Made by a program: the position numbers and the translations under genes. The notes under the pieces were generated by a model. The model had not been told where the DNA came from. It made no database searches and was given only the letters and a program-made list of their open reading frames with translations. DNA of 64,000 nucleotides from Styela clava. Lineage: Eukaryota > Chordata > Ascidiacea > Stolidobranchia > Styelidae. The stretch covers positions 13,600,151-13,664,150 of the forward strand of contig NC_135257.1 in NCBI RefSeq assembly GCF_964204865.1, written 5' to 3'. Shown one piece after another: positions 26,234 through 62,406 of this stretch. Within the stretch, counting starts at the first letter, position 1, and the number at the start of each line of letters is the position of its first letter.

Positions 26234-26330
26234 TTTACCTCATAATACCCACAATGAGTGATGACACTGTAAACTTATGAAATCGATGAAAAATACATTA
26301 TGGTTAGCAATAAATACAGATCAAATTATG

Positions 26331-33062: not shown

Positions 33063-33078
33063 GGCGCCATGCAGTCTG
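33063..33078. promoter_or_regulatory. Smad-type composite site 1: GGCGCC-N5-GTCTG
   Basis: GGCGCC (33063-33068), five bases, then GTCTG (33074-33078). This is an exact fit to the BMP-Smad composite site known from fly Mad/Medea elements and vertebrate Id-type BMP response elements. No E-box follows at 4 nt. It lies 2.8 kb downstream of the first Id-like gene. Confidence 0.55.
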
Positions 33079-35844
33079 TGACGGCTACCACTAATTTCAC
33101 ACAAGTGAAGTTAAAGCTAGCTTTCGCGATATTTTTATCTTTGGCTTTCATCATGTACCAGTAAGCTTGGGTACTTGATCAACATTTATTTTTAAGTGAG
33201 GTGTAGAATCGGTTTGTGTACGTCCATACATGTTATTTTTACCGGGTCAGAATAACCTTAGTTGCATGACTGCGAAGACACTTTTCAATCTGAGCGGCGA
33301 CATATTAAGATGATAGACTAGATTATCGGCGAAATTTTGACGGCCTGATTTTCATATTTTTCTAACGAAATTTTACTACGGCCCTACCCAGGTGAAATCC
33401 TCATACGTGGTTTGGCTGAGGGTCACATGCTTCGGAAAGAACAGTGTTTTACAATGCATTGAATTGTCCAATAATACGGACAATCAAATATAGACATCAT
33501 ACACATATATTTATACATTTTTCATAACCTTTCTTTGCTATCAGTCGCAATTACGTGCTCGCTGCCATTTTGAAAAACTAAAATTCCAAGTTTTGCATAT
33601 TTTAAGAATTTTTTTTTTCGTGTTTAAAGAAATGGGAACAAATTTAGTATTAATTTTGTGAACTGTTTTTCCGTCAAAAGAGAAAGCTTATGTCACGATG
33701 TGGATAATGATAGTTTTAGTATTTTAGAATTAAAAATTCTAGCAGTGTTGTAAGAGATATATTACACCCTTGCAAAATCAATATTTATTTTTGTTTGCTT
33801 ATTTCAAAGACAATCGAGCTCTTATGAATTTTGTACGAAACCATGCAAAAAAAAAATATATATATATTAATTTTAAAAATTTATTTATTTATGACCAACA
33901 ATTTATCACGCTGTATACTTGGTAGCTACATTTCTCAAAGCGGAATATTTTTAGGCCAGTTTCTGGATGGTAACCCTGTATTATCTTTATTTCAATGAAA
34001 ATACTACCGTTACCACGGAGGGCACAATGTACTCAGTCTTAATTCTTGCATCGGATACATTTCTAAATTACAAAGTATGATGAGCATGGTAAGGGTACAG
34101 AACTTCTTGTCATCACAGTGTGGTTCACGTAGCCGGCTGGGCCTTCTTCCACGACCAGTCATCTTGGACGTTGAATCAGTCGAAGATTACTGTGCTACCC
34201 ATATACACGGGGATGATATGATTTGGACCGTGTTATCTACCACACCCACCCCCCTCTTTGCATATATCCGAAAATTCCTTCTTTCTATTCTAAAGCCTGT
34301 GCCTTTGGTTGCTCTCTGATAAACTACCAACATTACTATTTTGAGATGTTCTCATGTCCTTCGCAAGTGTCTAAAATATGTTGGTGATGGATATTACTAA
34401 GTTAATTACTTCCTTTTACCCATGCGGTCGAAGACCTTAGGAGTAGAAGTTTTCTATTCTGCGTCACCCATTCATTATCAAATTTTAATTAGAAACCCCA
34501 ACATGGCCTATCTGGTCTCTTCAAACTCCATTACATCAAAAATAGTCGTTTGGTTGATCGAGGGAAATATATTATAGCAAATTTAACAATATTTCGATGA
34601 AGCAATTTTATGAAAAAATAGTAGCAAAAGCACTTGAAATGAATGAAAAATAATTAGAATAAAATACAGTAACTATAAATTGAACGCAAATAAGTTTGAA
34701 TGTAAATCAATGTAAAGGAATAATAATCGGAAGCAGGTGTACATTGGGACTCAAAGTTTCGTAAACAAAAATACGTGCAGTGGCATTTAATATGATATAC
34801 TAACATATCGTACCAATATCCAATTTTCTTCTATCGTTTTTGTAAGCATGGATGACTGATCATCAAAAGATTGGATACAACGCGTAAAGCCAAGCGGCGT
34901 CAATAGATGAGACATGCAGAAAAAATTAAACTTGTTTTCTACCGTTTAGCTGTGTAATAGGCAATTGAAAATTTGATATTTAAATCGGCCACCGCATCAA
35001 TTGGAAATGTTCAATAGCCACCTAGCCAAAGCTATGTTTTGTAAAACATTTTCCAATTTGAAAATAAAGCACACCGCTTATTCGTGTGATATTTTCAACT
35101 GTTGTAATACTGATCTTTGTACTGTTGGGTACAGTCTTCATTTTCCTTGTGATATAATATATGTAATTGTTGATGAAAGTACTACTTTTGTGTAGAAAGT
35201 TGATGATTTGGTCGCGTGATGATTTGACGACGATGAATATTCGGAATGTTTTTCGTCGGTTTGGTCCATTGGGTTTTCAAGGCTCGACAGAGACGCCAGC
35301 GTCAAAGCACGATTCGAAGCACCTAATCAAAAAGGAAAAATGTTACAAATACGTTGAAAGGTACGATAATAAAAAATTCCAGTTACGAATGTTTCCAACA
35401 CTTAGTTATTTATTTCTCATCATGAATAGGGCGAATAATACAAATACATTTTTTTATCTGTTTTGTTCAGTTTATTCCAGAACCAAAATTTGTTTTTATC
35501 GTGGAATACTGAATAGATTCAAAAGTTTGCACGCACCATCGTCGAAGTAGCATACTGGTACTCAAAATGCTGCCGTACAAAATTAGAAATCTACCGGTAT
35601 AAGCAAGCTCAAAAAAGTAATCTGATTATTATGCTATATCGGTACAATAATACAATACCCGACTTCCCAGTAGACAATTTTAAACAGGGTAAGGCATTAC
35701 AACACTCGCTAAAATGAGCAACCGGTAATATTCAGCTAATTTAAATATAATATGTCATGAAAATGATTCATGTCGCACATGCAAACGTACCTATATGGCT
35801 TTGTTGAGTGTGTTATTGCACATTTGAATGGCACCATCCATAAA
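33079..35844. other. Intergenic, no gene seen
   Basis: This is the 3' side of the Id-like gene. ORFs at 34077-34319 and 35167-35550 (plus) show no motif. A minus-strand ORF ending at a good donor near 32935 lies just left of it but is not recognised. Confidence 0.4.
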
Positions 35845-36297
35845 CTAACAGACGGGCGCCGACATCGGATGATGACAATTTGTTGCTTGCAATTGCTGCT
35901 TCGTTATATGATTGCTTGTTGATGAAATTATATTTTCTTGGTCTTCAATAGATTCGTTTGAAAAAGAATTGTTACTCGATGTGTTTCCGTCTCTAATAGA
36001 ATCCGCACATTCGTATTCCGGGCACTGCTGTTGTTGAAGTACTGAACTCAGATCATAGATATAATGAATCGCGTGCTGCATGATTTCCAAATCTGTGATC
36101 TTTTCATTTTTTATTCCTGCTATTGTCGGTACAACTGACTTCAATTTTTCAATCAGCATCGACACGCCAGACTCATCTTCGTCCGTCCGCCGTGAAATCG
36201 TCATTGATTTTGCGGCGAATTTATGTAACACATCCGTGGTCGATCTTACATGACACGATACTGCAGTAGTTGGTTTTGGAGATTGTGCTTTCACCAT
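35845..36297 (-). CDS. Id-type HLH protein (inhibitor of DNA binding-like), single exon, 150 aa
   Basis: A likely dominant-negative helix-loop-helix regulator. It should bind bHLH partners and keep them off E-boxes because it lacks a basic region. Helix 1 is about residues 44-58 (VSMLIEKLKSVVPTI), the loop 59-67 (AGIKNEKIT) and helix 2 68-88 (DLEIMQHAIHYIYDLSSVLQ), close to the Id pattern of LKxxVP and EILQHxIDYIxDL. No Arg/Lys-rich basic region precedes helix 1. The C-terminal half is Gln/Ser/Asn-rich and unstructured. The start is the first in-frame ATG (MVKAQSPKP), with a TATA-like element 115-125 nt upstream. No intron is needed, though many Id genes have one after the HLH. A paralogue lies at 53801-54061 on the same strand, and Smad/E-box modules lie on both sides. 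Confidence 0.88.
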   Translation of the reverse strand: MVKAQSPKPTTAVSCHVRSTTDVLHKFAAKSMTISRRTDEDESGVSMLIEKLKSVVPTIAGIKNEKITDLEIMQHAIHYIYDLSSVLQQQQCPEYECADSIRDGNTSSNNSFSNESIEDQENIISSTSNHITKQQLQATNCHHPMSAPVC

Positions 36298-36410
36298 ATT
36301 TGTTATATATTCTCAAATAAATTCTAAGTTTGTCGCAGTCTATTCAACCTTATACGCTCTGTGTGTAATCAACGATATCAAAGTAATGAATCAACCAATT
36401 TGCTGAGGTT

Positions 36411-36420
36411 GTTATATATT
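36411..36420 (-). promoter_or_regulatory. TATA-like element of the first Id-like gene
   Basis: AATATATAAC on the minus strand, about 115-125 nt upstream of the ATG at 36297. It is reasonably placed for a core promoter. Confidence 0.45.
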
Positions 36421-36580
36421 GGTCCAAATGATCCGGCGTTTTTCTTGAACCTGTCCAGCTTTGTTTAAACGGTTTAACGACAAATCTCGCTCATCACTTT
36501 TTCACCAACTCTCCTCTTGTTTCTTTTATTATCTCACCACGGGAGCAATCATAACATGGAACGCATTGTTTCGTTGGCGA

Positions 36581-36604
36581 CAGACAGGCGCCCAAGTGCA
36601 GCTG
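36581..36604. promoter_or_regulatory. Irregular Smad/E-box cluster in the first Id-like promoter
   Basis: CAGAC (36581-36585) lies one base from GGCGCC (36587-36592). GGCGCC abuts CAAGTG (36593-36598), which abuts CAGCTG (36599-36604); both are E-boxes. At the exact 5-nt spacing there is only a partial match, GCGAC. It sits about 285 nt upstream of the ATG, a promoter-proximal version of the distal modules with altered spacing. Confidence 0.45.
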
Positions 36605-38470
36605 GGTGAACAATAGAGATACAAAGAGATAAGAGTGATCATGCGAGAGAGAGTGATAATAAAATAATCGTATTGATATACGGAAAAGTTCGATACTGTA
36701 GTAAACTTACGGCCTTTATCTCGCTTCAATGAAGTCACAACCGCATTGAAAAAAAAAACGACCACGGAATGGCGCCAATACTACAACTTTAATTTGCTAT
36801 ATGTTTTTAAACTTTTAAACAGAAATAATTATTATTAAATAAAACACAGGTTGGGCAATTAACACACAACGGTAATATTTATTTACAGACATAAGTGATA
36901 AAAATTACCATTGTTGAATATTGTTACGAAATCAGATAAAATTCAAAACTTAAGGTATGAGTAGATTTAGCTTCTCTGAAACTTATTTCGTTAACGCACC
37001 TATCTCTATTTTACAAATTTCCAAATTTCGAGCGAACCAGATTTCAAAACTAAAATTTGTAGTGTTAGCTCCGAATTTTCGAAATCATCTAGGAATATTA
37101 ATGGGATATATTGTCTCAATCATCATTCGAATTCACAGCTAATCATAATTATCATCTATCTATGAGATATCATATTTTATGTTTGTGCAGCTTTGGGATT
37201 AAGCTGCATCTTTGTGACGTAAAAATTTCTATATTCTTCATTTCACCAAGCGATAAGTGTTATGTTTAGTTTCAAAATTACGTAATGGATGGATTAAAAT
37301 ATCTATTGCAATTGTAATTGAAACGTACATGTTAAATATCTTATCAAAATAAACTTATAAATTATGATTGAGCGATGACACGTGCAGGCGATATAACGCG
37401 GACAACTATCAAAACAACTGGACACCAGTTAAAAATAATAAAGTAGTGATAACAATAAATTCTTATTTAATCTTTGCATTGCTTTCACTTCGAACCTAAA
37501 ACGACCATAAATTCATCCAGGGTTTTTAGAATTAAAAGTATTTTTATGACGTAAAAAATTTTAAAAAGGTAATATTTTCATCAGTAAATGTGTCTCAAAT
37601 TCAATTTTATTCTTTAATTATTGGAGCATATACACACGAGTTTTCAAATTTTCGTTCAATTTAAACTCGCTTATTTGTACTATTCTCAAATATAAGTTAC
37701 GATTTCATCACATAGTCATTGATGAACGCTGTAATTATGCTACAATTCGATTCAAAGTATCAGAAAATAGTACCAATATTCGAACCGAAAGTAGTTCGAT
37801 TCCGAGAGGAGAAATTTTTAATGGACAATTCTTTCCCCAGCAAATCTGTAGAAATACTGTTTGACGTTGGTATACATACAATTTTCGCAATGTGTGGGTC
37901 ATTCTTGGTGACCAAATCGCATTTTCTGGTTCTAAGTGATTATTCTTGGATGCAAATAATTTTGAGAAGAAGTCATGCTTCGAAAATTTTCATGTCAGTC
38001 GTCTAGTGCGGAAACGTCTCGACCGGACGGATTTGGAAGAACACGTGAGTCGCTTGTTAATTAACGAACGACAAATTATAATTTGCAAAAGATTTTCCGC
38101 GGATTATCCCGTCAATTAATTTCCATAGTTAGGAAACATTTTTATGAGGCGTTCCATTCGAAGGGGCATTGTTTCACTAGACAGTCTGGCGGCACAAGAC
38201 TGCCACAACTACCCCCAAATAACGTTTATCCAAAATACTAATTGCTACGTGCCAAGTAAAACCCGTGGATGACTTGTACAATGATAGGTTGTCCCATATA
38301 TGATCCGTAATTAATAATGGATAATACGAGTACAAATAAGATTCCAGGTTAATCTCCACCTTTCGATCACATAATAACTTAGATCTTGTTTTTGTATTGT
38401 TGTATTATTCAGAGTGGCAATATGGTAATTAGAACTTTCCTTTGTGGCAACAAGTGTCCGAAACAGGTTC
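36605..38470. other. Upstream region of the first Id-like gene, no gene seen
   Basis: AT-rich. A lone GGCGCC occurs at 36771-36776 with no GTCTG partner. The ORF at 37719-38006 has no motif. Confidence 0.4.
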
Positions 38471-38486
38471 CAGACGCCAAGGCGCC
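38471..38486. promoter_or_regulatory. Smad-type composite site 2: CAGAC-N5-GGCGCC
   Basis: CAGAC 38471-38475, GCCAA, GGCGCC 38481-38486. A second GGCGCC is at 38505-38510. No E-box occurs at the usual 4-nt distance. Confidence 0.55.
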
Positions 38487-38510
38487 CTCGCGCAAACTTT
38501 GTGTGGCGCC

Positions 38511-39867
38511 ACTACTCGTGGGAAGAATAAATTAATTGTTTCATTAAACATTTGTTTATTGTCAAGAAAAATGAATAAATTGGTAATAAATCCGAACAAA
38601 TAGAACGGAATTGAGTGCGCTATCATGATTATTAAAATGTTTGGAGTGCTCTGCGATGGCAGAATCATAACTGACTCTGATTTAGTCCAAATTAAAATGA
38701 AAAAAAAAAACATGGTTCGAAGCATTGCTCATCGTGTATCTATCATGCTGCGAATGTTACTTCTATAATCTTATAGCGTATTTTTAATGAGACGTTCCAA
38801 CATTCTTGCTACCGAGTCACGCATAGTAAGAAATACCAGATGTCGCAAGTTGCGTTCAGATATGTTGCGTATACGTTACTAGTTTGGGCGTGCACCAATA
38901 ACATATCACATAATTTGTGGCATTACGATCTTTAAATCATCACCCGATTTCCTATTTTAGCCATAAAATACACGACAGACGCCCATCAGCAAAGAGTAAC
39001 ATATCATGACGCGATCTGGGTGGCTCGGGATAATCTTACTGTATTCGGGATTTGACCTATTCACGCGCAGTTTCGAGTCAATTCTTTTCAACCAAGTCTA
39101 GTGAACCATAAATGCATTTGAAAGTCAATCTTTTGGGCTAACAGGTGTTACGTGGATCCTTGTATTCGACAAGACAGAATTTGACCACGTTTAGGCGAAA
39201 TTATCTACTATCTTGGTATGGCTTTCATTAAAGTCCCCAGCAGCTAAAATTTGATCGTGGATCTGAAAACAAACATGTTCTTTACAGCAAAAGTCGCCAC
39301 CTGTCTTGAACCCATATGCAAAAAAAAAATTACATCAATGCTGCCGACGACGGTTCGTTGACGCACTTTCATGGTGGCCTCATCAAAAACAAATACGCCC
39401 AGCCAGGGCATATTTCTGTCCATGTACGTGACAAACTATGTCTACAAAGTTTCTAAAACATGAAATTATGTCCAAAAAAAAAAAAAAAAAAAAATAATAT
39501 TGTGTATTCGTAAAACGTATTATCTGATTCCCACAAATCAAAACTACTTTTGTGGACAGGAATTTTTGATTTCCACTTAGAAAGTGGTGATGTTGGTGAT
39601 CTAATTTTAATGTTATGACGTTGCATTGAGGAGGAGTAAACCAATCATAAAGGCAAATATGTTTTGAAATTTTTTATATCATGTTGATACATGGAACCAG
39701 TTTGCACATACTATAACGTACTTGCGTATAGATAATGTTCAATCGATTATGAATCATAGTTATTACATCGAATACCCACACTCGACACATGATATGTGAG
39801 TCGTAATCAAGTGGCTTTTTTGTGGAAATAACGGTTAGGTTTCTTATCAGATTTAACAAAGTTCTGT
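38511..39867. other. Non-coding, no gene seen
   Basis: AT-rich, with a run of A at about 39476-39496. No ORF with motifs. Confidence 0.4.
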
Positions 39868-39893
39868 CAGACGCTGAGGCGCCATTACAGGTG
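39868..39893. promoter_or_regulatory. Smad/E-box module: CAGAC-N5-GGCGCC-N4-CAGGTG
   Basis: CAGAC 39868-39872, GGCGCC 39878-39883, then ATTA and the E-box CAGGTG 39888-39893. It is an exact member of the four-copy module. It lies 3.6 kb upstream of the first Id-like gene. Confidence 0.6.
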
Positions 39894-42224
39894 CGCAGAG
39901 GATTTTATATTCTATTTTACGTCTTATCTTTATATACAATATGTACATATTGGTTATGTCACCTCGTATAATAAAGAACAAGATTAGGAAGCTGAAATAT
40001 GACTGAGAAATCTAGGATGATGGGACTAACAAACGGGAGACAGTGGACATGTTTTTTCATTTAAAATATATTTCCGTGGCTTGAGAGAAAAGACTTACGT
40101 AAAGGTCATTTTCGGACGTACCGTGGATTTCCATATGGGTATATTGGCCCCAAACATAATAAAACGAATAGTCTTCAAATATGATTAATTACTGCTAATT
40201 GGTGAAACGCACGTGTGCTGTTACGTAGCTGCCGATTGCATTTGGGTAATTACATTGCGGTTCTAAACTTGGCCACAAATGGACGATATCACCCCTTGTC
40301 GAATACTTTGATCAATATTTTGAGTTTATGGTTTCAACTTAAAAAACAGCATTCTTTAGTTCAAGATGATGTATTGATTGATTTTGATGGCTAGAGAGGT
40401 CAAAAAGAAACTTCGAGTTGCTCCCAAAATCTTTTGTCAATGCTTGATTCCGCTTTTAGGTGTGGCGTGATCTTGATTTGAAAAGGTTTACAAGAAAAAT
40501 ATACAAATGTATACGGAACGCTCACGCATGGCGACACGCAGAAGTGATTTTCACTTCGGTATAAGTCGACGACCGATTTTGATCATTGATACTTATCATA
40601 TACAATATATCAGGGTCAACGAGGAATCAAACGTATTCAAATAACCAACAGGGAAAGTCAACATTATATCATTAAGCGCGTATGATTAATTAACCATGTA
40701 TCCTAACGTGGGAAAAAATATTTCCCTCATGAAAGCCAGGCGGGGTACGTTTATAGTCTGGAGGATATAATACGTGCAACTACTCAGCGAGAGTAAAATA
40801 TACACAGTTTCATCTATATATCCTGCTGATATAAAAGAAAAGGTGTTCGCTAACCTTGAACCACGAAAAACATGTTTTAGCAAAGTAATGCACATCAATT
40901 TATTTATCAGCTATGTTATTATTGGTAAATTATCAAGTAGGTATACTGTATATTTCCGACACTGGAACATAATTAGTATAAACAAGAATATAAAGTGCAT
41001 CAATACCACACTTTTGTGACGGTTAAAATGTACATCAATGGAGTACGTCTTTGTGTCGCGTACGATATGTGTTCGATAAAATAAATAATTTTTGATTGAC
41101 TGAACGTTTCAAATGGCAGGAATAACAGAAACAAAAATTACTAGGTTTGTATAACTTCGTACTATCGAGTTCAATAACCGATTCGATGAAATCACAAAAT
41201 TAGGTTTTTATTAGATAAACAAATGACGTGATATACCTCAGGAAGAAATACGTCGTTAACCGCATGATTCTGATAAATTTAACAACAATTTAGTTTTACT
41301 CTTTGTTGACCACAAATAAATAAACGCACTCAATGGTACAGGTGTCACAACAAATTGGTTTATGAAATACCATTTTTCTTAGTAAAAATCGTTTTCGTAA
41401 AAGGAATGAATGATCTGATCATTTTATTCCTGGGTACATAATGTTTGAGATAAGTAAAACTCAGACATTGAAAAAATCTGTTCCTAGAATTTGAATTCCA
41501 ATTTTTTAACAAATTTATTTTATTAACAAAAATTGTCACCATTTAAATTTAATAACATATGATTTGTACTCATCGTCTATGTAGAAATATAATATTCTGA
41601 CATTGGACAAATATTGCTGTTGGACGTAAATGCCCACGCTTCGGAAGCTAAAAAAAGTGAATAGTTGTATACAAACGTAAAATCTACGAAACAAACTTGT
41701 CCTGTAATATATGTTCATACTGCAGTAAGCAGAAGCGCTATGAAAAATCACAAAGTATCATTATTCTTTTCCGTGATTTTATCCCCCCACCCTCACTTGC
41801 TTTCCCTAGCACTCGTTTTTTTTTATCAATAAATAACATCCCGGTGTTGGATTTCAACCTCGAGTTTATCAATACTTCATATCGAGTTTTTTCAATACTT
41901 CATATATCGATGAAAAATTTGACTCTTTAACGAAGTCGTTCTGTAAAAAAGAAAAAGTATTTTATACGGTAATACAAATTATACGCTTTTAAAAATACTA
42001 GGAATATTTTTCGAACCTTTTATTATATTCTTGGAAGAATACTGCATACAAAAATGTTTAGTAGAAATCGAAATTACCAAAATGAAAAAATGATTGTTAC
42101 GATGGCGTCATAGTTATGATTTTGGCAATTTGACGCCATTTCATAAACCGCCCAGGGAATTATCATTTCAAAATGGGAATTTATAGTCGTTTCTCAAATT
42201 CACCTATATAATTCTCTTTGCAGC
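39894..42224. other. Non-coding, no gene seen
   Basis: AT-rich sequence with only short ORFs lacking motifs. Nothing identified. Confidence 0.4.
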
Positions 42225-42237
42225 GTCTGGCGCAGAC
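42225..42237. promoter_or_regulatory. Near-palindromic GTCTGGCGCAGAC
   Basis: Two Smad half-sites (GTCTG and CAGAC) face each other across GCG, 170 bp from the module at 42407. This could be an additional Smad contact; it is a single instance. Confidence 0.3.
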
Positions 42238-42406
42238 AGTTTACAAAGACCATTTTATTGTCTATATACGTATGGCCTCCCATAATTTTGTTTTTAATAC
42301 TCCCATGATCAGAACGCCGTATAGGTGAACCGGTATTTTCAGAAAATAAATGTAGTGAAAGAAAATAGCATATCTAACCTCACATCAGATAAATCATTAG
42401 TCCTGT

Positions 42407-42432
42407 CAGACGCCATGGCGCCATCACAGCTG
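42407..42432. promoter_or_regulatory. Smad/E-box module: CAGAC-N5-GGCGCC-N4-CAGCTG
   Basis: CAGAC 42407-42411, GGCGCC 42417-42422, ATCA, E-box CAGCTG 42427-42432. Same order and spacing as at 39868 and 62025. The N5 and flanks differ, so it is not simply a repeat copy. Confidence 0.6.
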
Positions 42433-42910
42433 CGTGTGACCCGTCAAATTATTATCATAAAATATTGCTCTGAGCCCTTGCCACGGATAAAGTTAGTGAT
42501 TTTCGTTACTTTCCCACTTTCTCACTCTTTCTCGGGCAAAACGAGAGATCTTAAAATTACTGACTGCGACTGGTTACGTGGAAGCGTTGCCGAATAATTC
42601 ATAATTCATAGTCATAATTCAGAGCATCCAGTGCCGGAGTCATCTCCATATCCATGATACCATAAATTTATGGCTGAATTAGTACCATTTTTAAAACTGT
42701 ACAATTTTTTTAAAACCGTGCTAAATTTGTATCTGATATAAAATATAAACATGACGTCTTCGCCAACAGCTCGTTAATCTATTTTTGATAATAATTTGTG
42801 CAATAGATAAAGCAAAGATTATGTAGATTGTGCGGATTGAAGATATAGATCACTTAGTAAAAAACTCAGACGGAATTAAAAAGTTTTATATATTTTGCTC
42901 TTTATAACTA

Positions 42911-42940
42911 AAAGAGAGCTATGCTCAAATATATGGACAC
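42911..42940 (-). repeat. Dispersed repeat family R1, short fragment
   Basis: Contains AAGAGAGCTATGCTCAAATA followed by TATGGACACG, the terminal signature of R1. About 43040-43085 holds a sequence ending in CCATGGACAAGCCTGG that resembles a hAT-type terminus, probably a separate relic. Confidence 0.5.
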
Positions 42941-43390
42941 GAAATCCAAAATGAAATGTTTTGCCATCATTTCTCCGAAATTCATACGATTTTCGTGTCC
43001 CCCGTGTCCCATGCGAAATACAAATGCTGTGCTGTCCCATCCCATTCCATCCCGTGGGACGTTTCCCATGGACAAGCCTGGGAATTGCTTTGAACTAACT
43101 TATGAATATGTGTTGCATGAATTTATCTGTGTTCAATGTTAACCAGGGTGTTGGTGAATACTCAATCATTTATCCTTCATTGCTGTGATGTTTAAACTTA
43201 TTCCATTTATTTTACCTGATTTATGTTAATTGCGGAGAATTCTGTATCAAAAAACTCGTGTGGCTTTAACTTCATTACTAGAAGGGGTTAAGTAGCTCAT
43301 AAATCCTCACCATAAATTGATTACATTATTAACTTTTCGTGATGACACTTTGGAAACAAAACAAACGAATTTTTTCGAATATAATGAAAA

Positions 43391-43462
43391 TGGAAATGCT
43401 GGGCATTGAACCCAGGGCCTCGCACATGTGAAGCGTGCGCTCTACACCTGAGCTGCATCACC
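43391..43462 (-). pseudogene. tRNA-Ala-like gene with CAC anticodon, probably degenerate
   Basis: The body follows the tRNA-Ala at 51523-51594, but the anticodon loop is TTCACAT, giving CAC (Val) where Ala has CGC. The acceptor pair 3:70 is T-T instead of the G-U that marks alanine tRNAs. The D-loop GG is shifted. The anticodon stem (CACGC/GTGCG) pairs perfectly, so the change is not simple decay there. It lies 4 nt downstream of a tRNA-Ser in the same sense, with TTTT between them. Confidence 0.6.
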
Positions 43463-43466
43463 AAAA

Positions 43467-43548
43467 CGACGAGGATGGGATTCGAACCCACGCGTGCAGA
43501 GCACAATGGATTAGCAGTCCATCGCCTTAACCACTCGGCCACCTCGTC
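43467..43548 (-). tRNA. tRNA-Ser (GCT)
   Basis: An 82-nt serine tRNA: acceptor GACGAGG/CCTCGTC with discriminator G, anticodon loop CTGCTAA (GCT), long variable arm, B-box GGGTTCGAATCCC. All stems pair. Identical to the two other copies in the window. Confidence 0.93.
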
Positions 43549-44055
43549 TACGCACTTCGTGACGATGAAGATTTCATTGATTGTGACATAATTAAAGAGT
43601 TTGTTATTTGAGTTCCTGAATTGAAGATGTCATGTAACTCTCTTTTATAAAAACGAAGCCACCCCGTTTTATGGAATGAATATTTGTTTGACTAGAAAAA
43701 AAAATGTTTCTTCACCATAGCAATGCAATTTTCATTCTTACTTTGAGAGTGTTTTCGAAATCGGGGTGGGCAAACGCGTTTGAATTTTCAAATTCTTGTC
43801 TTGTCTGGGATATCCTGTAGGACAGTTTTTTCATTTAATCAATATACTTTAATTTTATAATAGCCAGCCGGAATAGCCTAGCCAGGCTGAAATTAGTCCT
43901 CCTTTTTTTTTTGTGGCAGCTGCTTAACACCAAATGGTGTTTGCATAAGCCGACTCTCGAAAACCCCTGAATATAAGCACAAACTAATCTCAAAGGTAAA
44001 ATATAGGAAGCATTTTTCTCCAGCCAAGAACCTCTGTTATGCTGATTAAATCGAA

Positions 44056-44137
44056 GACGAGGTGGCCGAGTGGTTAAGGCGATGGACTGCTAATCCATTG
44101 TGCTCTGCACGCGTGGGTTCGAATCCCATCCTCGTCG
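44056..44137 (+). tRNA. tRNA-Ser (GCT)
   Basis: Same 82-nt tRNA as at 43467-43548 but on the plus strand, so the two face away from each other about 0.5 kb apart. No T run separates it from the Ala-like sequence that starts 5 nt on. Confidence 0.93.
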
Positions 44138-44141
44138 TCCT

Positions 44142-44213: not shown

Positions 44214-44218
44214 TTTTT

Positions 44219-51522: not shown

Positions 51523-51594
51523 TGGAGATGCCGGGGATTGAACCCGGGGCCTCACACATGCGAAGCGTGCGCTCTACCACTGAGCTACATCCCC
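51523..51594 (-). tRNA. tRNA-Ala (CGC)
   Basis: A 72-nt alanine tRNA: acceptor GGGGATG/CATCTCC with G3-U70 and discriminator A, D arm GCTC/GAGC, anticodon loop TTCGCAT, T arm CCGGG/CCCGG with GGTTCAATCCC. A TTTTT terminator follows within a few nt. It lies 3 nt after a tRNA-Ser in the same sense with no T run between, so the two may be transcribed together. Confidence 0.93.
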
Positions 51595-51597
51595 AAT

Positions 51598-51679
51598 CGA
51601 CGAGGATGGGATTCGAACCCACGCGTGCAGAGCACAATGGATTAGCAGTCCATCGCCTTAACCACTCGGCCACCTCGTC
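51598..51679 (-). tRNA. tRNA-Ser (GCT)
   Basis: Third identical 82-nt tRNA-Ser(GCT) copy. It is upstream partner of the intact tRNA-Ala. Confidence 0.93.
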
Positions 51680-52309
51680 TACGAGAGATCAGCAGATGCT
51701 GTAAGCGTATATATAGTACACACTATTCTCTCGTTCTCGTGAATTCATATTTTCAGTCGTGTTGTAAATCAATGATTATGGTTCCGTCAATGAGTACGTT
51801 CACTGTGTAACCAATATAACGAAAATGTAAGTTTACACCACTGATATATGTGATGAAATTAACATTATTAGAATGTATTCAAGTGAAGTCATTCAGCCCT
51901 TTGTTATCCTTTAATGCCTCTTTGATTACCTTAAATTATCATATAATTTGGTCCAGTAGCTTTTCCAGTTCATTGGATATCAGTTGTTTACGTCTGGTAC
52001 TGGGTGGTTAGCTTCTTGTGCACTGTTTTGTCTCATTTGTGCTAAGCTGAGAATAAGTTTACTGAAGCCCAGTCTTTAGATTTTTATCTGATATTAAATA
52101 GCTTTTAAATGTGTATCTAGTAGGGGGTGCAGTGCGCTTATGAAATGTTGAGAAATATTAACTTATGCGTATATTTATGTCATAAATAGTTTATACATAG
52201 TATTGCAGCCATTAAAATCTTACAACTCTACCCACAAAAATTGTTGTTCCGATTATATACAAGCATATCTGCAGCGTTTAACTACCTAATGATCGTACAT
52301 TGTTAAATC
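51680..52309. other. Non-coding, no gene seen
   Basis: AT-rich sequence between the tRNA pair and the next Smad-type site. Nothing identified. Confidence 0.4.
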
Positions 52310-52359
52310 CAGGTGCCGAGACAGACGCGCGAGACTACCTGGCGCCACGTTCGCACCTG
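52310..52359. promoter_or_regulatory. Smad-type site with two E-boxes: AGAC-N5-GGCGCC
   Basis: E-box CAGGTG 52310-52315, AGAC 52332-52335, five bases, GGCGCC 52341-52346, then 7 nt and the E-box CACCTG 52354-52359. A further CAGAC at 52322-52326 is out of spacing. It lies 1.4 kb downstream of the second Id-like gene. Confidence 0.5.
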
Positions 52360-52985
52360 TGTTGTCAATACGCGGCACCGGTGTTTGATTGGATATCGCT
52401 ATTAAATATCTCCAATTCAGTAGTTCCGTTTCTCTCGAAAAGGCGCAAGTTTTAAACAAAGAAATCCCGACGGGCAATCTGATACTGTTTACAAATATTT
52501 TCACGGCAGCGAAGGGCCAGAGGCACGGAGAAACGGAAATATTGCTACATTCGACCACAAATTATTTGGGTACATTCGGTATATTTGACTCGGAAGTATT
52601 CAGGCTAAGATTACCCAAAATAAATGTCACGTTTCGTGAAAAATCAAATCTATTCACATGCTTCACATTTCGGATATTGAGAAATTATATTGACCCACAG
52701 GCTTCGTCAATAGCAATATAATATATATAGGCACTACGCGCTATGGAGTGTAGTAATCATTTTAGTCGTCTTTGTCAGACCATTATGTAATTAAAAATTG
52801 TCATTGCTGAATAAAAGTTGTAACAAAGATGCACATGCCTGTTGTGTAATGACAATAATAGTCAAATATTGCGGTAAAATGATGAAATTCCATCTAATAA
52901 ACTGACATTGTATTTGCACCTGCTTATCCAGGTGGTCGCGTTAAATATTTTCAGGTTGCTGACGAAAGATAGGGGCATACCCAGG

Positions 52986-53162
52986 TCATCGTCTCTTCCT
53001 GTGACGCATGACCATGCTTAAGTATCGTATACCGAGAATTAAAGGAATAACCCAAGCAACTAACTTGGATGAAATGTATTGATGAATGTATTCCAATATT
53101 GGCCCAAACTTAACGACGGTATAGTTATGTTCTTCGTATGTCAAATTCACGGCGAACGGCAT
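52986..53162 (-). CDS. Possible small membrane protein ORF or GPCR-like exon relic (weak)
   Basis: An ATG at 53162 opens a 58-codon frame: MPFAVNLTYEEHNYTVV with two N-glycosylation sequons (NLT, NYT), a hydrophobic segment LVAWVIPLILGI, then YLSMVMRHRKRR and stop. This layout recalls the N-terminus and first helix of a rhodopsin-type receptor, but the GN pair of helix 1 is absent and no later helices follow. It may be chance. Confidence 0.2.
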   Translation of the reverse strand: MPFAVNLTYEEHNYTVVKFGPILEYIHQYISSKLVAWVIPLILGIRYLSMVMRHRKRR

Positions 53163-53517
53163 AGAAAGGGGAGTGTTTATAGTGTTATTTCGCACCTGTA
53201 CCCATATTTACCAAGTCATGAGTTCAGCAACTTCTGAAATTGAGTTATCTTCTACTCTGGGTGCACAGTATTTGTTACGCTGACTCCTTGTATATATTTG
53301 CAATGCCTTTGAAAGCTTGGTTATGGGAAGAAAATGATAGACATTATATGGAAACAAAATTACTATTATTAAATTACAAAATCGACCAGACAATACGCTA
53401 TGAACACTGCGAGTAATCGTGTGGAACGATTTTGTTTTCAACATGACATGTATGCGTCAATAGTTCAGTTCCTGGATACCTGTTTCACAACAAACGCATC
53501 TTTTGTTCATTTTATAC

Positions 53518-53523
53518 TTTATT
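53518..53523 (-). terminator. AATAAA poly(A) signal
   Basis: Minus-strand AATAAA about 280 nt after the stop of the second Id-like gene. Confidence 0.45.
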
Positions 53524-53800
53524 GCATTTCAAAAAAACATGACACTTTAATTTTATAGTAAATTACAAAATATTTTGCATGCATGAATGTTGGCATGGTT
53601 TATCTTCATGCAACATGTCTCTTTGCCCTTCATTTTCTCCTCTCGACGGAAAACGTTCGTGTTGGATTTTGGCCGATTTATTTTTGACGATATCCGTACA
53701 TTAGCTTCTTGATTTGACAGCATACATGTATCTTCTATTGAAGATATCAGTAGAGGTTTGTTGTCGGTTGAAGTATCTTCATTTGCCTCTGGTGAGCATT

Positions 53801-54061
53801 TCAATCTTCTAGGACTTCTGTTAAATGTCTTATGTAGTCGATCGCATTCTGCATTATATCCAAATCTGATAGTTCTGATTTCTTTTGCGAAGTTGACGGT
53901 ACAACTGATTTCAGTTTTTCGTACAAATCTGACAATGCACATTCATCTGTTGAATGACGGTAAATCTTCTTTGAACTCGAGGAAACTTTATGCATAGGAT
54001 TCCAACATTTTGCATTGGCTAAACTTGAACAAGCGTTGCGTTTCATGAACGAAGGCTTCAT
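53801..54061 (-). CDS. Id-type HLH protein, single exon, 86 aa
   Basis: Second HLH regulator without a basic region, a paralogue of the gene at 35845-36297. The HLH covers about residues 41-84: helix 1 ALSDLYEKLKSVVP, loop STSQKKSELS, helix 2 DLDIMQNAIDYIRHLTEVLE. It shares EKLKSVVP and DL.IMQ.AI.YI.L with its paralogue. The start is the ATG at 54061 (MKPSFMKRN), 88-95 nt downstream of a TATAAATA box. The protein ends three residues after helix 2, unusually short. An overlapping frame just beyond resembles the C-terminal tail of the paralogue, so a frameshift or base error near 53803 is possible. It should act by binding bHLH partners. Confidence 0.85.
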   Translation of the reverse strand: MKPSFMKRNACSSLANAKCWNPMHKVSSSSKKIYRHSTDECALSDLYEKLKSVVPSTSQKKSELSDLDIMQNAIDYIRHLTEVLED

Positions 54062-54148
54062 CTTTTCAATTGATTTCAAAACCTGAGGTTAACTTTCTTA
54101 GCAATTGATACTTTTCAAGTTGGTATGACTTCGCTGGCGAGATTACCG

Positions 54149-54156
54149 TATTTATA
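54149..54156 (-). promoter_or_regulatory. TATA box of the second Id-like gene
   Basis: TATAAATA on the minus strand, 88-95 nt upstream of the ATG. This implies a short 5'UTR of about 60 nt. Confidence 0.6.
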
Positions 54157-54273
54157 TGCCACTATTCTTTTTTCTTTTGTGTCTGTACATTTATTCTCTT
54201 CGATCTTCTATCGGCTGCGCCACGGACTCCCGCTATGCGTCTAGCGGCAAAATGTGTAATTACCGTGAGAGAT

Positions 54274-54290
54274 AGCGCCAACTGCAGGTG
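54274..54290. promoter_or_regulatory. Half module in the second Id-like promoter: AGCGCC-N5-CAGGTG
   Basis: AGCGCC (54274-54279; GGCGCT on the other strand), five bases, then the E-box CAGGTG (54285-54290), about 120 nt upstream of the TATA box. The CAGAC half is missing, so this is a partial version of the distal modules. Confidence 0.4.
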
Positions 54291-57200
54291 CACCGCGTGT
54301 ATCGTTAATATCCCTGCTGCAGTAACTGATTTGTTGTCATTTAATATCATTTAGCGGCTCTTTTATTCTGGGAATAAGTGTGATGTGCAGTATAGTAATC
54401 AAAACAGATCTTCGGACAAGTTATAAAATTATGATAGCGTCTGCACGCTTGCACGTGTTCTGTGACGTCTTAGCCAATTAACCACAATTTGGCTCAAGGT
54501 ACCAACATTTTTATTGGATAGTTGACCGATTTCATCATTTTAAGCCACGAACCAATTTTCATTATTTTACGATTTAGAACGTGTGATTCATCCCGCATAT
54601 TGAAAAAGTAGTACACTGAAAAAATTGTAATAATTGATATTAAACAATGCTTTCATAGTTACGTAGAAAAGTGTGCAACATTGTCGACAAATGAAAAAAT
54701 GATTTATTCGGTCTGTGAACATTTTCATTGGTTAGCGAAATCCAAATAGTATGGTGACGACTGAATGGTAAAATAACACTAGTAATAGTTTCAAAATAGA
54801 AGTAATAATTGATGATTAAGATTTACAGTCTTCATATGGATAGAGCTACACCAGAAGCAACGACAGTGTATTTTTCTTATTTATTTGCTTCAACCATCTG
54901 AATATTCGCCTGGACAATAATTAATCAACATTCAATGCTCGACGACTTGGACGACAAAACCGAAATCAAGTTTTGTATCGCGTTCCATTTTTATGATTGG
55001 CCTCGAAATGAATTTTATACATTAGTGAAACCTATATTATATATTTGTTTATTCAAAATTGATAAAAAAAAAACTCTCATCACACGTGTGTTCTCTAATG
55101 ACGTTGAATGAAACATTCCATTATAATTTAGCATAGTGACTCGAAGACCGAATTATGCTTAAGTTTGGTGGCGTAGATTTTGAATTGAGTTCATTACATG
55201 GTGGCGAATCAAAAAATAAGTTGACTGAAGCCTGTAACAACGTAGCCAATTTGGTACAATAGTTTATTTATTTCACGAATATACCATGCGATAGGAATTT
55301 TTGCATAGACCATGCTCCTTTTTCTAAACATTCGATTTTGAGCCACGAAACAAAATTACAATAATGACTGATTTAAAATTTACAACGAGAGGAAGTTGTA
55401 AATTTTTTATTTGTTTTAACTTCAATCAAATAATAGCAAGTAAACAATACTGCTTATTGCACTATACAATTGCATTAAAAGTTAACATCTGACCATTAGA
55501 ATATTCCTGCAACAGAGAGTATCACAATCCATCTTTACGATTTTGTATTTGTAAACACCTTCGACATTTCCGATATTATAATCAACACCTGTTTTACTAA
55601 TGACAGTGAAGACTTGTAGAAAATCATGTATGACCACGTATGACCCCATGCAAATAGATGGGTAAGGTAAGGTAAGCCGATAATTGCGCAGCGTATCGTA
55701 ATACCTACAATCGTTTTAGTAAACGTTTGTTTCGATGGATTGTTTTGATTCTTCGAGAAGTATTTTATAGCGATGAGAAAATTCCTTTCATTTATTGCGT
55801 ATTGACTTTCCAAATTTGGCTTCTACCATCGTAAAAGTGATATGACGTTTAATACTCTAAGGAAAACGTGAACATGTTTATGCATAACACGGTGTCAAAA
55901 TATATAGTTATAGCTCAATTGAAGATGAGAACTTGCTCCAATACACCTGTGAACAGGTGTCAGTCACACATTCAAGCAGGACGGAAACAATATAAATTTA
56001 CGACAGAGAAAAACCTTTGATCAACGTATTATAAAAATTACAACGATGTGAAGTATTGGTATGAAAATGTTACAATATCGCACCTTTTTACCTGGTGTGG
56101 GAGAAGACTGTTCGCCATGCGATACATGCTATTCCCAAGCGTAATACTTGACGCAGTGCTGCTTCCACGTTTACAGGCCTTGCTTATTACACTATTACTA
56201 TCCGTTTTAGCAAAACTAACGTTAACCATGAAAGTGTGGTTTGTCGTATAAAATGTCGCGCAACGACGTCACAAAGTAATTTTAATTTTAATAGTAATTT
56301 TAAACGAGTTTGATGATAAAACTAAATATAAAAAATTAGGATTGGAAGCAAAAGTTGTCCAAACATTAACGTATAGCGAATATGGATTATTTATAAGAAT
56401 TTTTTTTTTTTCTTTGGCGGATCAGAAGTTTTTCCAAACTCGGATCAGTGTCTTTAAGACACGTCATATCCGAGTTATATCGGTCAAAAGAAGTATGAGC
56501 ATTGTTTACACAACAGCGTATAACAACAACATGCACGGATATTGATGTCTATGTGGTAGCCCAATATCTCTAAACGGTGGGGGACATTCAGGTGACAATT
56601 GTGGTCATGTATGCACTTCTACATCTAACTGTGTTTGTTTATTTGATTTTACAAATCATAAGAAAATAGTGTTGATTCATGGGACTTGCTGAATTATGAA
56701 AATCGAACGAACAAAAAAACTACATGATTTGTATAAGTCCTACGTTTATTACCATGATAAAGTAGCGGACTATTTGGTTTCACTCGCAATAACCTGTATA
56801 ATTCGACCCAATGAATTTAAAGTGGAAAACAAAGATCGAAATATTTTCATTTTATAAGTTAATCTCCAACCCTAGTTCATTCAATCTCTCCAAATAACAT
56901 CGTTTCTACTTGATTTGCCATCAATTGAATCCAGGTGTTTGAAAATTTCTAGTTTATGATTGTTTTTGTAGTTGCAGCTGGGTCTTCGGTGCACAACCAT
57001 GAAATACTTTCATGAAAAATTTAGTTAGAAAAACAGAAAAAAGTCCTGATCCAGTCATCTGCTCATTGTTTATATTGCCCACGTGCCACGAGTTACCCTT
57101 TCCGCCACATGAGTGAACCAGACAGCAAAATTACTGAAATCTAAATTTATCACCCTGCATTTCCTAGTATCTTTACTAGATATAACTTCATGCTATCGCG

Positions 57201-60200
57201 AATGCTCATACTGATATTTATTTGTTCAGTCCGTACTAAACTATGAGAATTTGCAATGATACCTATGCTAATAGCTGAGGTTATCATAAAATTGAGCTAT
57301 ATGCAATCAGGCTTCAGTAACTTTCCATATGAAATTATAATTGTGGCTCTGCACAACTCAGAAATTTTTGAAGCGTTTGTCACGAATTAAGAGTCTCAAC
57401 GTGCTTACTTACTTGGCCTAGAGTTGCTAGCAAAGATGTAACTATTTTAGGCTTTATATGCGTAAGTTTTGGATTTTGTTTATATATTATACCAAGTATT
57501 ATACATTTCATACTTAGTGAGCAAAGAAAGCAATTGCGGTATGAAAATATTTGATTTACTATGCTATTCTAACGCTATAAATTTTTCACATTTTCTGTGT
57601 ATCAAGTGACCGGTATATGTTTTGATTGTATTGGTATTGTCAGACTTGTTTTGAAACGCCTAAGTGACTTTGAAGAGTGTTTGGTAAATTTAGACGACTC
57701 AACAATGCGGTGAATATTATGACGTTGTATCAGGATGTCTGACTTCGTAAATAAAATCGTCGTGTTTTTTTTTTAGAAAATTCAAAATAAATGAATTATA
57801 TAATAAGCAGATAAAATTAAGCTGACTCTAAGCTGAAATTCTGTTTTAAAGATTATCGTAGCACATAACGAAAAAAAGTCCCGTCAAATGTAATAAATTG
57901 TATACAACTTGAAAAAGGAACATTTAAATATGACACATTTAAAGAAGAAATGGACCTATTGATAGACATTTTGGCAAATTGATGAATTGCTATGCTACTA
58001 CTATGCAATATAAAGAGTCATTTTAATTAAAAAAAATCACATCCAATTAGTTTAAATTTGTGAAAGTTTTGTTAAAGATGTTCATGGGTTCGTTACAATA
58101 CCTCAAGTTAGGCCTGCATTGATAAAACTATGACATAGCGGGATCTGCTTAACAAGTGGCATATGTCCACGGACTACCTTCATGTTCACTTGTTGTTTAT
58201 TGCTTTCTTGTTTATAGTTTGTTTAAAATGAAATTGATTTCTTGTACATCATACACATAGTGAATTTTGAACAAGTAGTCCTACTAACTTCATAAAAAAT
58301 CCATCATATGTGAGCGTTCATCTTTATTTACCACTAGAGGAATACTGCCTATGTGTTAGACGAAAAGGAGAAATTGACTTCAATTTAATTACATAAATAG
58401 CAGTGAGCAAGGAAATTGTACCCATAAATTACATTTATCGTTACTATTTACAAATACCTTTCATGAACCTTCCGCATTTAATTATTTCACACCTGGACGT
58501 TTTATTTGTTTATCGCGTGAATAGAAGGCGATCATTAAAATAAGAAAACACTGCATTGTCGAATAAATCGATGTATTCGGAAGTGTCAGAATGTCGTCAT
58601 GTAACTGTTTGTGATTCGCGCCCATTTCTCATTGTTATTATGCCGATATATGGCAAGATGGGTGACGTGAACACTGCATGGATGTAGTTTTCCCCACTGC
58701 CCATGTCTATGCACACGAAACTATTTACCGGTTGACTATTCTTATATTTGATTGGCATTGTTGACAGATGAGAGATAGTGCTGCAAAGCAGTTTTTTTTG
58801 TCATGTTCATGCTTAATAAAAATATTTCATTTTCACTTATGTCGTAAATTCAGGCCGTTAGCATATCAATGTAAGGAGGAGACATATCAAATAGTTTGTT
58901 TCTCCTAAAGCGTTTGGCGATAATTCCGATAATAAAAGTTGTTCTTGTTTGTCCAATAAATTCAGAATTTGGTCAAGTTTTATTATCGTGTAGTCATTTT
59001 AATGAGATGGACAGGCTTCGTATGTGTCAAAATATACAGGTGCCAAACTAAAATACAGTTGTGCAAGTTTTCTCCGTTTTTTGATCTGTTATTCTGATCT
59101 GATGATTTTATCTTATTTTTATGTACGCGACATTATCTAAATCGATAATTATCCTTGACAAAGGTGTGCTACTCAAACAGATTGCAAGCAAAAAAGTATG
59201 AAAATATTCAGAATAATCAGAAAAATCATGGGTCACACATCTGCCTTTTCCCAAAGTAGGAGAAAAGGATTTCAGAAATTGTCCGAAGCCGTTTTCGAGT
59301 GCCTATGCAACGTCTTGCGTTATGACTCAAAAGTTTGATGCGATGCTTTGGTTAGCCATGCTATAAAAATACCGTTATCCGGTGATGAACACCATGATGA
59401 AAGTAAAGTATAAAAGCAATAAATGAAGACTTAAAACCGATTAAGACTTCTTGGGTCAAGAACAGAAAGTGGTGGAAATACGAGCGTCACGAAACCATAC
59501 CTAAAGGTATAAATTGTTGAAGAGTCATTCCATGTCACTGGCTTATTCTTGAGAAATTATCTATTCTTATCAACAGGTAATACGTTTTTTGATGGTCATT
59601 TCGAAAATCGCTACTTATCAGCATTACGCCGAGCATTAACGAATTCCATCCAGTTATAAACATGTCATATCTGATGGAATACAGCCACCTGTTTTATACA
59701 AACAACGTTAGAATAACAAACACATAGTTAGATTTACATATCGTTTGGAAATTTTATATAACATCTACTCAACTATGGCCGAACCCTGTATTGCACCTCA
59801 AGAGTGAATTTCAATACTAGCCCACACTTGGTTGGTTGTGTGTTAATGATTAACTTATCAGATGCTTGATTCGTATATGCATCACACTATTATCTTGTTA
59901 ATCGGACGTTTTGTTTGGACTGATTGCTCCATTAGTAACATCTGCGTTGGTGAACTTGGGTTTAAGGTCACAAGAAAACGGTTTTCATGTACTTAGTCAA
60001 GAGTGGATAATATGCAGCGCATAAATGAGTATTTTGTTGCCAAGAAAGTGCTTCATTTTCAGGAGTGCGTCTGACTTGCAAAGGAAATGATGTATTTGAT
60101 ATTTTATTTTCTAACGAGTGTCCCCAGAAACGGTAGCGGTTCTTCATTTCATCCACTTTTTATAATACCGTTACAAAATATAAACATATAGTTGCTGTAT

Positions 60201-62024
60201 CAATTCGGACCATAGGTGTAAAATAACAATAAAAAACTGAAAAAAAAACTGGATGACATTGCCATACCTGAAAATTTCTTTTTATTACAAAATTAGTAAT
60301 TCAATACGTGACACTGAGAAGACACATCATATACCTTCTTATCATCAACATAGAACCAATTGGTAGATGGAGCTGATAAAAACTTTCTAAAAAATAACAG
60401 GTGATGACCTCATTTTAGAAAACTCACTGGTATACAAATAGCATTTAGATTTAGAGAGAATAAATAACGCACACATTATAAATTCATTTTCTTTTTTTAG
60501 TCGTTGATTTGCTAGACATCAAAAAGACAATGGCTAACCTAAAAACCACTAAATTAGCCGTTCTCTGATTGAATTATAAAAGAAATTGTGATAATTGAAG
60601 CCCATCCTTTGAAACCATATTTCTGGAATTATGAACGTTGCTAATTAATCCCAGATGTTATTCGGAAGTTTCCAATTATCACTATTCATTCATCTTCTAT
60701 GTCTATCAAGTAAATGGACTATACTCTTCCTATATATAATTCGAGCATATTGTAATATAGCTAACACAAAATCGTGCTTGACTGATGAGTAAATATATAT
60801 ATATATATATATATAAATGACTCGGCCCAGCAACAGCTCATACACGTCCGTGGAAAGTAAATACAGCGCAACGTGGTACAGAATATAAATGGGCGCAGTA
60901 TGAAAAACTGAAAATTGAATGGCAGTTAAATATGCGCGTGAGCAACATTATACATATTGAACACATATAGAGTGTGTATTCTACTTGAAAACTAATCGAA
61001 CAATTATATAGATAGTTATTGAACAATTTTGTTTTGAATAATTTATTCATAAAGAAGATTGAGTAAAGGTTAGATTTTGTTGCGTTTCGATGATTATGAG
61101 GCAAATTTTGCGAACGATTTCAATCTTACTTTACTATATGTTTTGCAGTGCACCTGGATGAGGAATCAATTAATCAACTTATCTTCGCATGATGTCCATC
61201 GAAAAGGCAAAGTTACCAAAATTGATAATGAAATATTAATTTGATTTTGCTCAATTCATCATCATGATACGTCATAAGATAATTTGCCAGTATCCGCCAT
61301 ATCATAATTAACCGCCTTTAGGCTTTTAATACTGCTTAGTTTTGTCGCAAAAAGTATGGGATATGTATGAGCAATGTAATTCAACGTATGCGTATGAGTG
61401 ATTAAAATTACAATTTAAATATTTCGGAGCACAGCAAATTTATCCTTTTAGCAGTGCCATGCAATCGAATTTGTTGATATTTGAATATATTCTTTTTATT
61501 TTTCTTACAAAATTTTAAATTGTTTGTATATTTCGGCAAAAAGCTCAAAAAAGTAAATTAAAAATGCTCTAAATTCCCATTAGATCCATCTACTAATAAA
61601 ATGAATTGTACCAGGTGAGGGATATGCTAAGATATTGACAAAATATTACCATTGCTCAAATTGTTATTGCCGGAAATAACATGAAAATAGACCCTATCTA
61701 ACGATTTATCCAATGCACATATTGAAAGGAAAATCCAACACACACAAAATAACTCAGTTTTACTGTAATAGTATACGTTTTCGTATTGAATTTTATTTCG
61801 AAATATTTTCTTCTCCCTGCGAGGGACAGCAAATAAAAGTCGACAGCGTGAATATCGTACGCGGTGTTTTAATGTCATTTATGAACTGCAGCTGAGCGCT
61901 AGGATGCCGCTTGGAAATATATGACCACCTGCGTTTAGCCATGAAAAGTTTATCCAGAGAAACTTAAATGTAGTTAAACAATCGCAGGCGCGATATATCA
62001 AAGTCAGTTAATAGGCGACATGCT
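54291..62024. other. Long non-coding region, no gene seen
   Basis: About 7.7 kb upstream of the second Id-like gene. It is strongly AT-rich, with an (AT)n run at 60793-60814 and no ORF with a recognisable motif. It could be a regulatory desert; I see no specific element in it. Confidence 0.45.
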
Positions 62025-62050
62025 CAGACTGAGAGGCGCCAAGGCACCTG
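62025..62050. promoter_or_regulatory. Smad/E-box module: CAGAC-N5-GGCGCC-N4-CACCTG
   Basis: CAGAC 62025-62029, GGCGCC 62035-62040, AAGG, E-box CACCTG 62045-62050. It lies 356 bp from a second module in the same orientation and within a locally GC-richer stretch (about 61.99-62.54 kb), which looks like an enhancer. Confidence 0.6.
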
Positions 62051-62380
62051 GTTAAATTGTTGCGCCTCTTCAATTCATTACGCGTCGGCACACGCTCTTT
62101 AACCCTATGCTCGCTACGACTCAGCTGTTTAAAAATTTGATAATCGTTAAAAATTGTGGATTTGTCAAATTTTCTCTCCTAAAACTCTTCCACAATTAAA
62201 TATCTCGTCTCGGGGAAAGATTTACAAAAAAAAAAACGAGAAAAGAGTGGGAAAGTGTGAAGGAATTTTTCGAGAGTGGCAAAATTCTATCATAAAAAAG
62301 TCACGGGGCCAAAGCTTTTTATATTTCTCTCGTATTTTGTTTTCCTCCGAATTTTGAGGGCAGGCAAATCAACAATCTGC

Positions 62381-62406
62381 CAGACTGGCAGGCGCTAGCG
62401 CACCTG
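62381..62406. promoter_or_regulatory. Smad/E-box module: CAGAC-N5-GGCGCT-N4-CACCTG
   Basis: CAGAC 62381-62385, GGCGCT 62391-62396, AGCG, E-box CACCTG 62401-62406. One base differs from GGCGCC; order and spacing are identical to the 62025 module. Confidence 0.55.

Follow-up and report, generated by a model that had tools for sequence, protein, structure and literature searches.

Putative Smad composite sites, many with an E-box at a fixed distance, cluster around tandem Id-like genes in a tunicate

The window analyzed here is a 64-kb stretch of a tunicate genome (NC_135257.1, contig C9, positions 13600151-13664150, in an assembly of 376,610,584 bases and 379 contigs) in which composite Smad sites of the form GGCGCC-N5-GTCT lie around Id-like helix-loop-helix (HLH) genes. 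In most exact copies at this locus, an E-box stands 4 bp from GGCGCC, and in its RGCGCC form this E-box composite is confined to the Id cluster, apart from one copy in a dispersed repeat. We think that these sites are probably bone morphogenetic protein (BMP)-response elements of a tandem tunicate Id cluster, at which an E-box factor, with an E protein as the likeliest candidate, would cooperate. Judged by its sequence, the Smad part would correspond to the Id response element already described, now in a tunicate, and the E-box at a fixed distance would be the new part.

The initial annotation had listed seven composite sites in the window and none in a P450 region at 0-33 kb. An exact scan of both strands for AGAC-N5-GGCGCY returned those seven and no others, with no match below 33 kb. 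CAGAC is present in six of the seven, the site at 52332 having AGAC only; six read GGCGCC-N5-GTCT, and six fit GRCGNC-N5-GTCT. The sites, their variants and the Id-like genes are given here in window coordinates, which also run past the window where stated:

33063-33077, plus strand: GGCGCC-N5-GTCT with no E-box on the GGCGCC side, 3.2 kb downstream of the IdA ATG.
35848-36297, minus strand: IdA, open reading frame from ATG within an Id-like HLH exon (35848-36312), an HLH without basic region (phmmer against PDB, profile).
36579-36604, minus strand: IdA promoter-proximal variant CAGCTG-N6-GGCGCC-TGTCTGTC, with GTCT at spacing 1 and GTC at spacing 5, 282 bp upstream of the ATG.
38472-38486, minus strand: GGCGCC-N5-GTCT with no E-box on the GGCGCC side, 2.2 kb upstream of the IdA ATG.
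39869-39893, minus strand: E-box composite CACCTG-N4-GGCGCC-N5-GTCTG, 3.6 kb upstream of the IdA ATG.
42408-42432, minus strand: E-box composite CAGCTG-N4-GGCGCC-N5-GTCTG, 6.1 kb upstream of the IdA ATG.
52332-52359, minus strand: CAGGTG-N7-GGCGCC-N5-GTCT, 1.7 kb downstream of the IdB ATG.
53804-54061 / 54088, minus strand: IdB, Id-like HLH exon (PDB ID-2, E 1.3e-4; Pfam HLH 31 bits, above the cut-off).
54274-54290, minus strand: IdB promoter-proximal E-box and GC Smad half-site CACCTG-N5-GGCGCT, weak, with no GTCT at spacing 5.
62026-62050, minus strand: E-box composite CAGGTG-N4-GGCGCC-N5-GTCTG, 8.0 kb upstream of the IdB ATG.
62382-62406, minus strand: E-box composite CAGGTG-N4-AGCGCC-N5-GTCTG, 8.3 kb upstream of the IdB ATG.
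74.2, 82.4, 86.5, 114.2 (IdC) and 136.3 kb, right of the window: further Id-like HLH exons.
109290, outside the window: variant with GGTGCC and an E-box at gap 6.
113926, outside the window: IdC promoter variant CAGCTG-N6-GGCGAC-N5-GTCT.
124222, outside the window: variant with an E-box at gap 4 and no GTCT at 5.
124726, outside the window: variant with GGCGTC and an E-box at gap 4.

That even one such match in the window would be improbable by chance, as the annotation had also argued, is borne out by a dinucleotide model, which expects 0.014 matches to GGCGCC-N5-GTCT and 0.019 to the GGCGCT form; 300 dinucleotide-preserving shuffles of the window gave a mean of 0.063 matches and a maximum of 2. 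Genome-wide, GGCGCC-N5-GTCT occurs 221 times (0.04 expected per 64 kb against 6 seen, P ~4e-12) and GRCGNC-N5-GTCT 2141 times (0.36 expected against 6 seen, P ~2e-6). The reversed patterns occur 162 and 1877 times, so the motif is hardly enriched over the whole genome, and the unusual feature is its local density. Many of the 221 are repeat copies, with 42 distinct linkers among the 100 matches listed. The composite is thus not found at similar density everywhere, and the proposed clustering stands. Chance or a repeat artefact, for which the near-parity of the reversed pattern speaks, is ruled out by the local counts and shuffles, and we regard it as vanishingly unlikely.

The spacing is equally sharp. 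Over 264 kb around and including the window, GTCT stands at exactly 5 bp from 11 of 28 GGCGCC, and every other spacing from 0 to 30 occurs at most three times. Five of these 11 sites lie beyond the window, around IdC, 50 kb to the right, and nine of the 11 end in GTCTG. All fall in an 85-kb interval, for which P is ~1e-22 with the interval picked after the sites had been seen.

The genes at the center of this density belong to the Id family. IdA finds ID-2 (E 3e-4) and ID-1 as its best phmmer matches in PDB, and its Pfam HLH score of 18.6 bits is below the cut-off of 20.7 bits. A profile of seven cluster members matches ID-2 at 3.8e-9, with ID-2 and ID-1 as the best solved relatives; the HLH is closest to ID1-ID3, and the stretch before helix 1 is not basic in the alignment. 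The cluster comprises about seven Id-like HLH genes over ~100 kb, only part of which the window holds. Right of the window, at C9:13674352-13736800, it continues with three divergent copies between 74 and 87 kb, IdC (114 kb) and a partial HLH (136 kb). Searching the whole genome with IdB yielded 11 scored candidates and five matches at E up to 1, all within the cluster and none outside it. The initial annotation had placed the sites around an Id pair: they do cluster around real Id genes, but they extend past the window to a third, in a cluster of about seven. The exact GGCGCC composites lie around IdA, IdB and IdC; near the three divergent copies there are none, only AGCGCC-N5-GTCT ~40 bp before one ATG. 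Upstream of the ATG, IdB (54060-54500) and IdC (113850-114250) both have TATAAATACG sequence.

Next to the Smad composite stands the E-box, which the initial annotation had not noted. Among the 14 RGCGCY-N5-GTCT sites in the 264 kb, CAGGTG, CACCTG or CAGCTG lies exactly 4 bp before GGCGCC in eight and 4-7 bp before it in ten. The E-box is one-sided relative to GTCT, being on the GGCGCC side, and the gap distribution is sharp at 4, which puts the centers of E-box and GGCGCC 10 bp apart, about one helical turn. At a random position in the locus, an E-box occurs at gap 4 in 0.13% of cases. On a second set of 13 sites, which drops -23171 and 82367 (both lacking an E-box within 10 bp) and takes in 124726 (first picked up through its E-box), the counts are 9 at gap 4 and 11 at gap 4-7. 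CANNTG-N4-RGCGCC-N5-GTCT occurs nine times in the genome, and the reversed pattern twice; four of the nine are in the window, four around IdC and one on C2. Finally, CANNTG at N4 accompanies 7/11 GGCGCC-N5-GTCT sites of the cluster as compared to 1/210 elsewhere (Fisher 6e-10, treating repeat copies outside the cluster as separate sites), or 1/42 when the distinct linkers outside, taken from the 100 matches listed of 221, are used (1.6e-5).

E-boxes are also common in this locus at large: counted on both strands, the density of CAGGTG is 14 and 16 per 10 kb in the bins close to IdB and IdC, versus ~3.4 in the rest of the 264 kb. The Smad composites might then be real and the E-box functionally minor, or part of a general enrichment, which would leave the Smad part untouched. 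However, the random rate of 0.13% already contains this local enrichment, and a general excess of E-boxes would not suit a gap distribution that is sharp and one-sided. We therefore consider a minor E-box unlikely. CTCF was considered and set aside, as its motif does not suit the 4-bp gap.

A different concern is which factor reads the E-box. It could be a Snail/Scratch or ZEB repressor site, such that Smads activate the Id genes and a zinc-finger repressor, possibly on the same Smads, limits them; here too, the Smad part would be untouched. CAGGTG is indeed the commonest form among the E-boxes, but CAGCTG, which is not known to be a good Snail/ZEB site, takes its place at 42408 and in the promoter variants of IdA and IdC. 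ZEB2 binds phosphorylated Smads (pSmads) and CACCT(G) sites and affects Id2, yet ZEB factors are described as binding a spaced pair of CACCT sites (PMC10048071). Both CAGGTG and CAGCTG fit CAGSTG, the preference of E proteins and ASCL1 (PMC6126921). We hold the repressor alternative to be somewhat improbable.

The flanks bear on where the sites came from. In 1-kb windows around the 13 sites (two pairs overlapping), the only thing in common at matching positions, besides scattered short matches, is the element itself, over ~20-50 bp (longest 51 bp). Thus, the element was kept or regained and not copied with its surroundings, and duplicated enhancers are ruled out.

A looser version of the grammar does travel. 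The relaxed pattern CASSTG-N4-GNCGNC-N5-GTCT has 341 matches in the genome, and all 100 matches listed look, by 25 bases, like one dispersed repeat. This repeat, ~1.35 kb long, carries CAGGTG-TGTT-GGCGTC-N5-GTCT, in a few cases twice, 72-76 bp apart; two aligned copies (L001:518-1835 and L046:1919-3275) are 87% identical over ~1.35 kb, and tRNA and Rfam scans of both were empty. The C2 E-box composite lies within the repeat, whose other copies, among the matches listed, mostly have GGCGTC or GACGTC. A transposable element carrying CAGGTG-N4-GGCGTC-N5-GTCT could accordingly have seeded the Id sites, and its spacer resembles that of some of them. Against this, blastn at E 1e-3 with the repeat part of L001 retrieved nothing from the 264 kb, the L046 copy has a short match at its left edge only, far from the Id genes, and the flanks of the Id sites do not match each other. 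Such seeding is highly improbable to us. A separate, recurrent short repeat around GCAGGTGCAATTG...GGGTTCAAATGTACGTGGGTT, possibly derived from a short interspersed nuclear element, lies at 65555, 83978, 123306 and 128054 and contains CAGGTG.

In the mechanism we favor, BMP-activated Smad1/5-Smad4 would bind GGCGCC-N5-GTCTG, as Smad recruitment and a BMP response are published for vertebrate GGCGCC-N5-GTCT elements (PMC11907993; PMC3439458). In most copies, CAGGTG/CAGCTG would be bound by an E-box factor, for which an E protein is the likeliest candidate, by itself or paired with a proneural protein; the factor would sit one helical turn from the GGCGCC center and cooperate with the Smads. Id would then be made where BMP signalling and basic helix-loop-helix (bHLH) activity coincide, and Id protein would sequester the E protein, closing a negative feedback. 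The arrangement suggests that these Id genes may be activated where two inputs converge, and the landscape would be, as the initial annotation had it, 'multi-enhancer' and 'BMP-responsive'.

Several observations weigh against this reading. On the GGCGCC side, an E-box is missing from the nearest 10 bp in four of the 14 RGCGCY-N5-GTCT sites; CAGGTG is also a Snail/ZEB site; and the relaxed grammar, going by the 100 of its 341 matches that were listed, is not confined to Id genes. Moreover, the E-box spacing was spotted before being tested, so its P values of 1e-20 to 1e-24 overstate the case and the genome contrast is the safer test. In Drosophila, the level of Emc is set mainly post-transcriptionally via its partners (PMC5915177), and active Dpp leaves Emc expression unchanged (PMC3410860); the proposed feedback therefore has no fly precedent. 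Our literature search, with subscription papers mostly outside its reach, found no fixed 4-bp Smad-E-box code at Id genes; one may be in print elsewhere.

The tunicate origin of the DNA is seen on the contig itself. Exons of a cellulose synthase GT2 and a GH6 domain lie in order on one strand of the same contig as the window, an arrangement that we take to be tunicate-specific. Among animals, cellulose synthesis and a tunic are unique to tunicates (PMC8965075). TTAGGG telomere sequence is present at one of eight contig ends read, and mitochondrial COX1 had no match in the assembly. To the left of the Id genes (1-33000) are several P450-like exon pieces, at 14093-14365 (Pfam) and at 21512-21853 and 25949-26239 (by eye), a pattern suggestive of a tandem P450 array next to the Id cluster. 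A fragment of a mariner-type transposase (HTH_48) lies at 9340-9924, with a similar shortened piece near 198332.

How do these sites compare with known BMP elements? The annotation had quoted GRCGNC-N5-GTCT, which is the Drosophila silencer form, the one that works through Schnurri; the sites do follow the BMP-Smad grammar that has been published for Id genes of vertebrates, which supports this part of its reading. The Dpp elements of Drosophila comprise a silencer, GRCGNC-N5-GTCT, and an activator, GGCGCCA-N4-GNCV (PMC7669266). The sites fit the silencer consensus in core, spacing and final T, a base that the activator consensus excludes and that ends all 13 sites owing to how they were selected. 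If they were Schnurri-dependent silencers, BMP would repress the Id genes. However, gene and phylum differ, the genome is that of a chordate, and at vertebrate Id genes such sequences mediate BMP activation (PMC11907993; PMC3439458); in the sea urchin, BMP overexpression expands id expression (PMC3410860). Schnurri-mediated repression is hypothetical here and, in our judgement, very unlikely. As GRCGNC-N5-GTCT is a silencer form and GGCGCC-N5-GTCT is activating in vertebrates, the sign of the response is one that we infer from Id biology and the chordate host.

The closest likeness is to the BMP-response elements (BREs) of vertebrate Id genes, namely Id2 (GGCGCC-N5-GTCTG; PMC3439458), Xenopus id3 (GACGCC-N5-GTCTG) and the mouse Id1 BRE, with which the sites have in common the core, the 5-bp spacing, the orientation, GTCTG and the linkage to Id. 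An 'ID-like' heterocomposite has been described near ID1-4, and Smad1/5 composites require the 5-bp spacer, 1 bp more or less having abolished the response in GGCGCC pairs (PMC11907993). The sites share with this class GGCGCC and GTCT(G) at 5-bp spacing, the mirrored orientation and the location at Id genes, and binding by pSmad1/5-Smad4 is predicted. In contrast to the vertebrate elements, three tandem Id genes are here surrounded by 11 exact copies within 85 kb, 7/11 with an E-box 4 bp from GGCGCC; the accessible portions of the vertebrate papers mention no E-box (PMC3439458; PMC11907993).

Bicore1 is an Id enhancer common to deuterostomes and molluscs, and Clarke et al. detected no Bicore in tunicates; its element of ~100 bp includes an 8-bp Atf palindrome, along with conserved E2f sites (PMC3410860). 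Like Bicore1, the sites are Id-linked and Smad-based, have a fixed order and spacing, and include two Smad sites upstream of Id. Bicore1 was rejected as an identity for them, since TGACGTCA, presumably the Atf site, is absent within 600 bp of the 14 sites; no sequence search was made for Bicore1 itself. The nearest TGACGTCA is at least 633 bp from the composites of the 13-site set, while the degenerate site at 109290 has one at 138 bp. Control of Id by BMP is among the oldest known enhancer-level links in animals. Its conserved enhancer went undetected in tunicates, yet the link itself appears to survive here in another form, many times over and with spacing exact to the base pair. This raises the questions of whether BMP continued to act on Id in the absence of Bicore1 and of a fixed-geometry cooperation of Smads and bHLH factors on genes that inhibit bHLH factors. 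Tentatively, we may go further: instead of Bicore1, tunicates might have a rigid tripartite code, E-box-4 bp-GGCGCC-5 bp-GTCTG, read by one Smad1/5-Smad4-E-protein complex, with Id genes as coincidence detectors with built-in feedback and a transposable element family with a close version perhaps exploiting the same complex.

Of the factors that could pair an E-box with Smads, E proteins are known Smad partners. ZEB factors are known partners as well (ZEB2; PMC10048071). Ascidian Msx enhancers also contain Smad sites and show fast site turnover (PMC7710358), which fits a recurrent gain of sites such as those around the Id genes.

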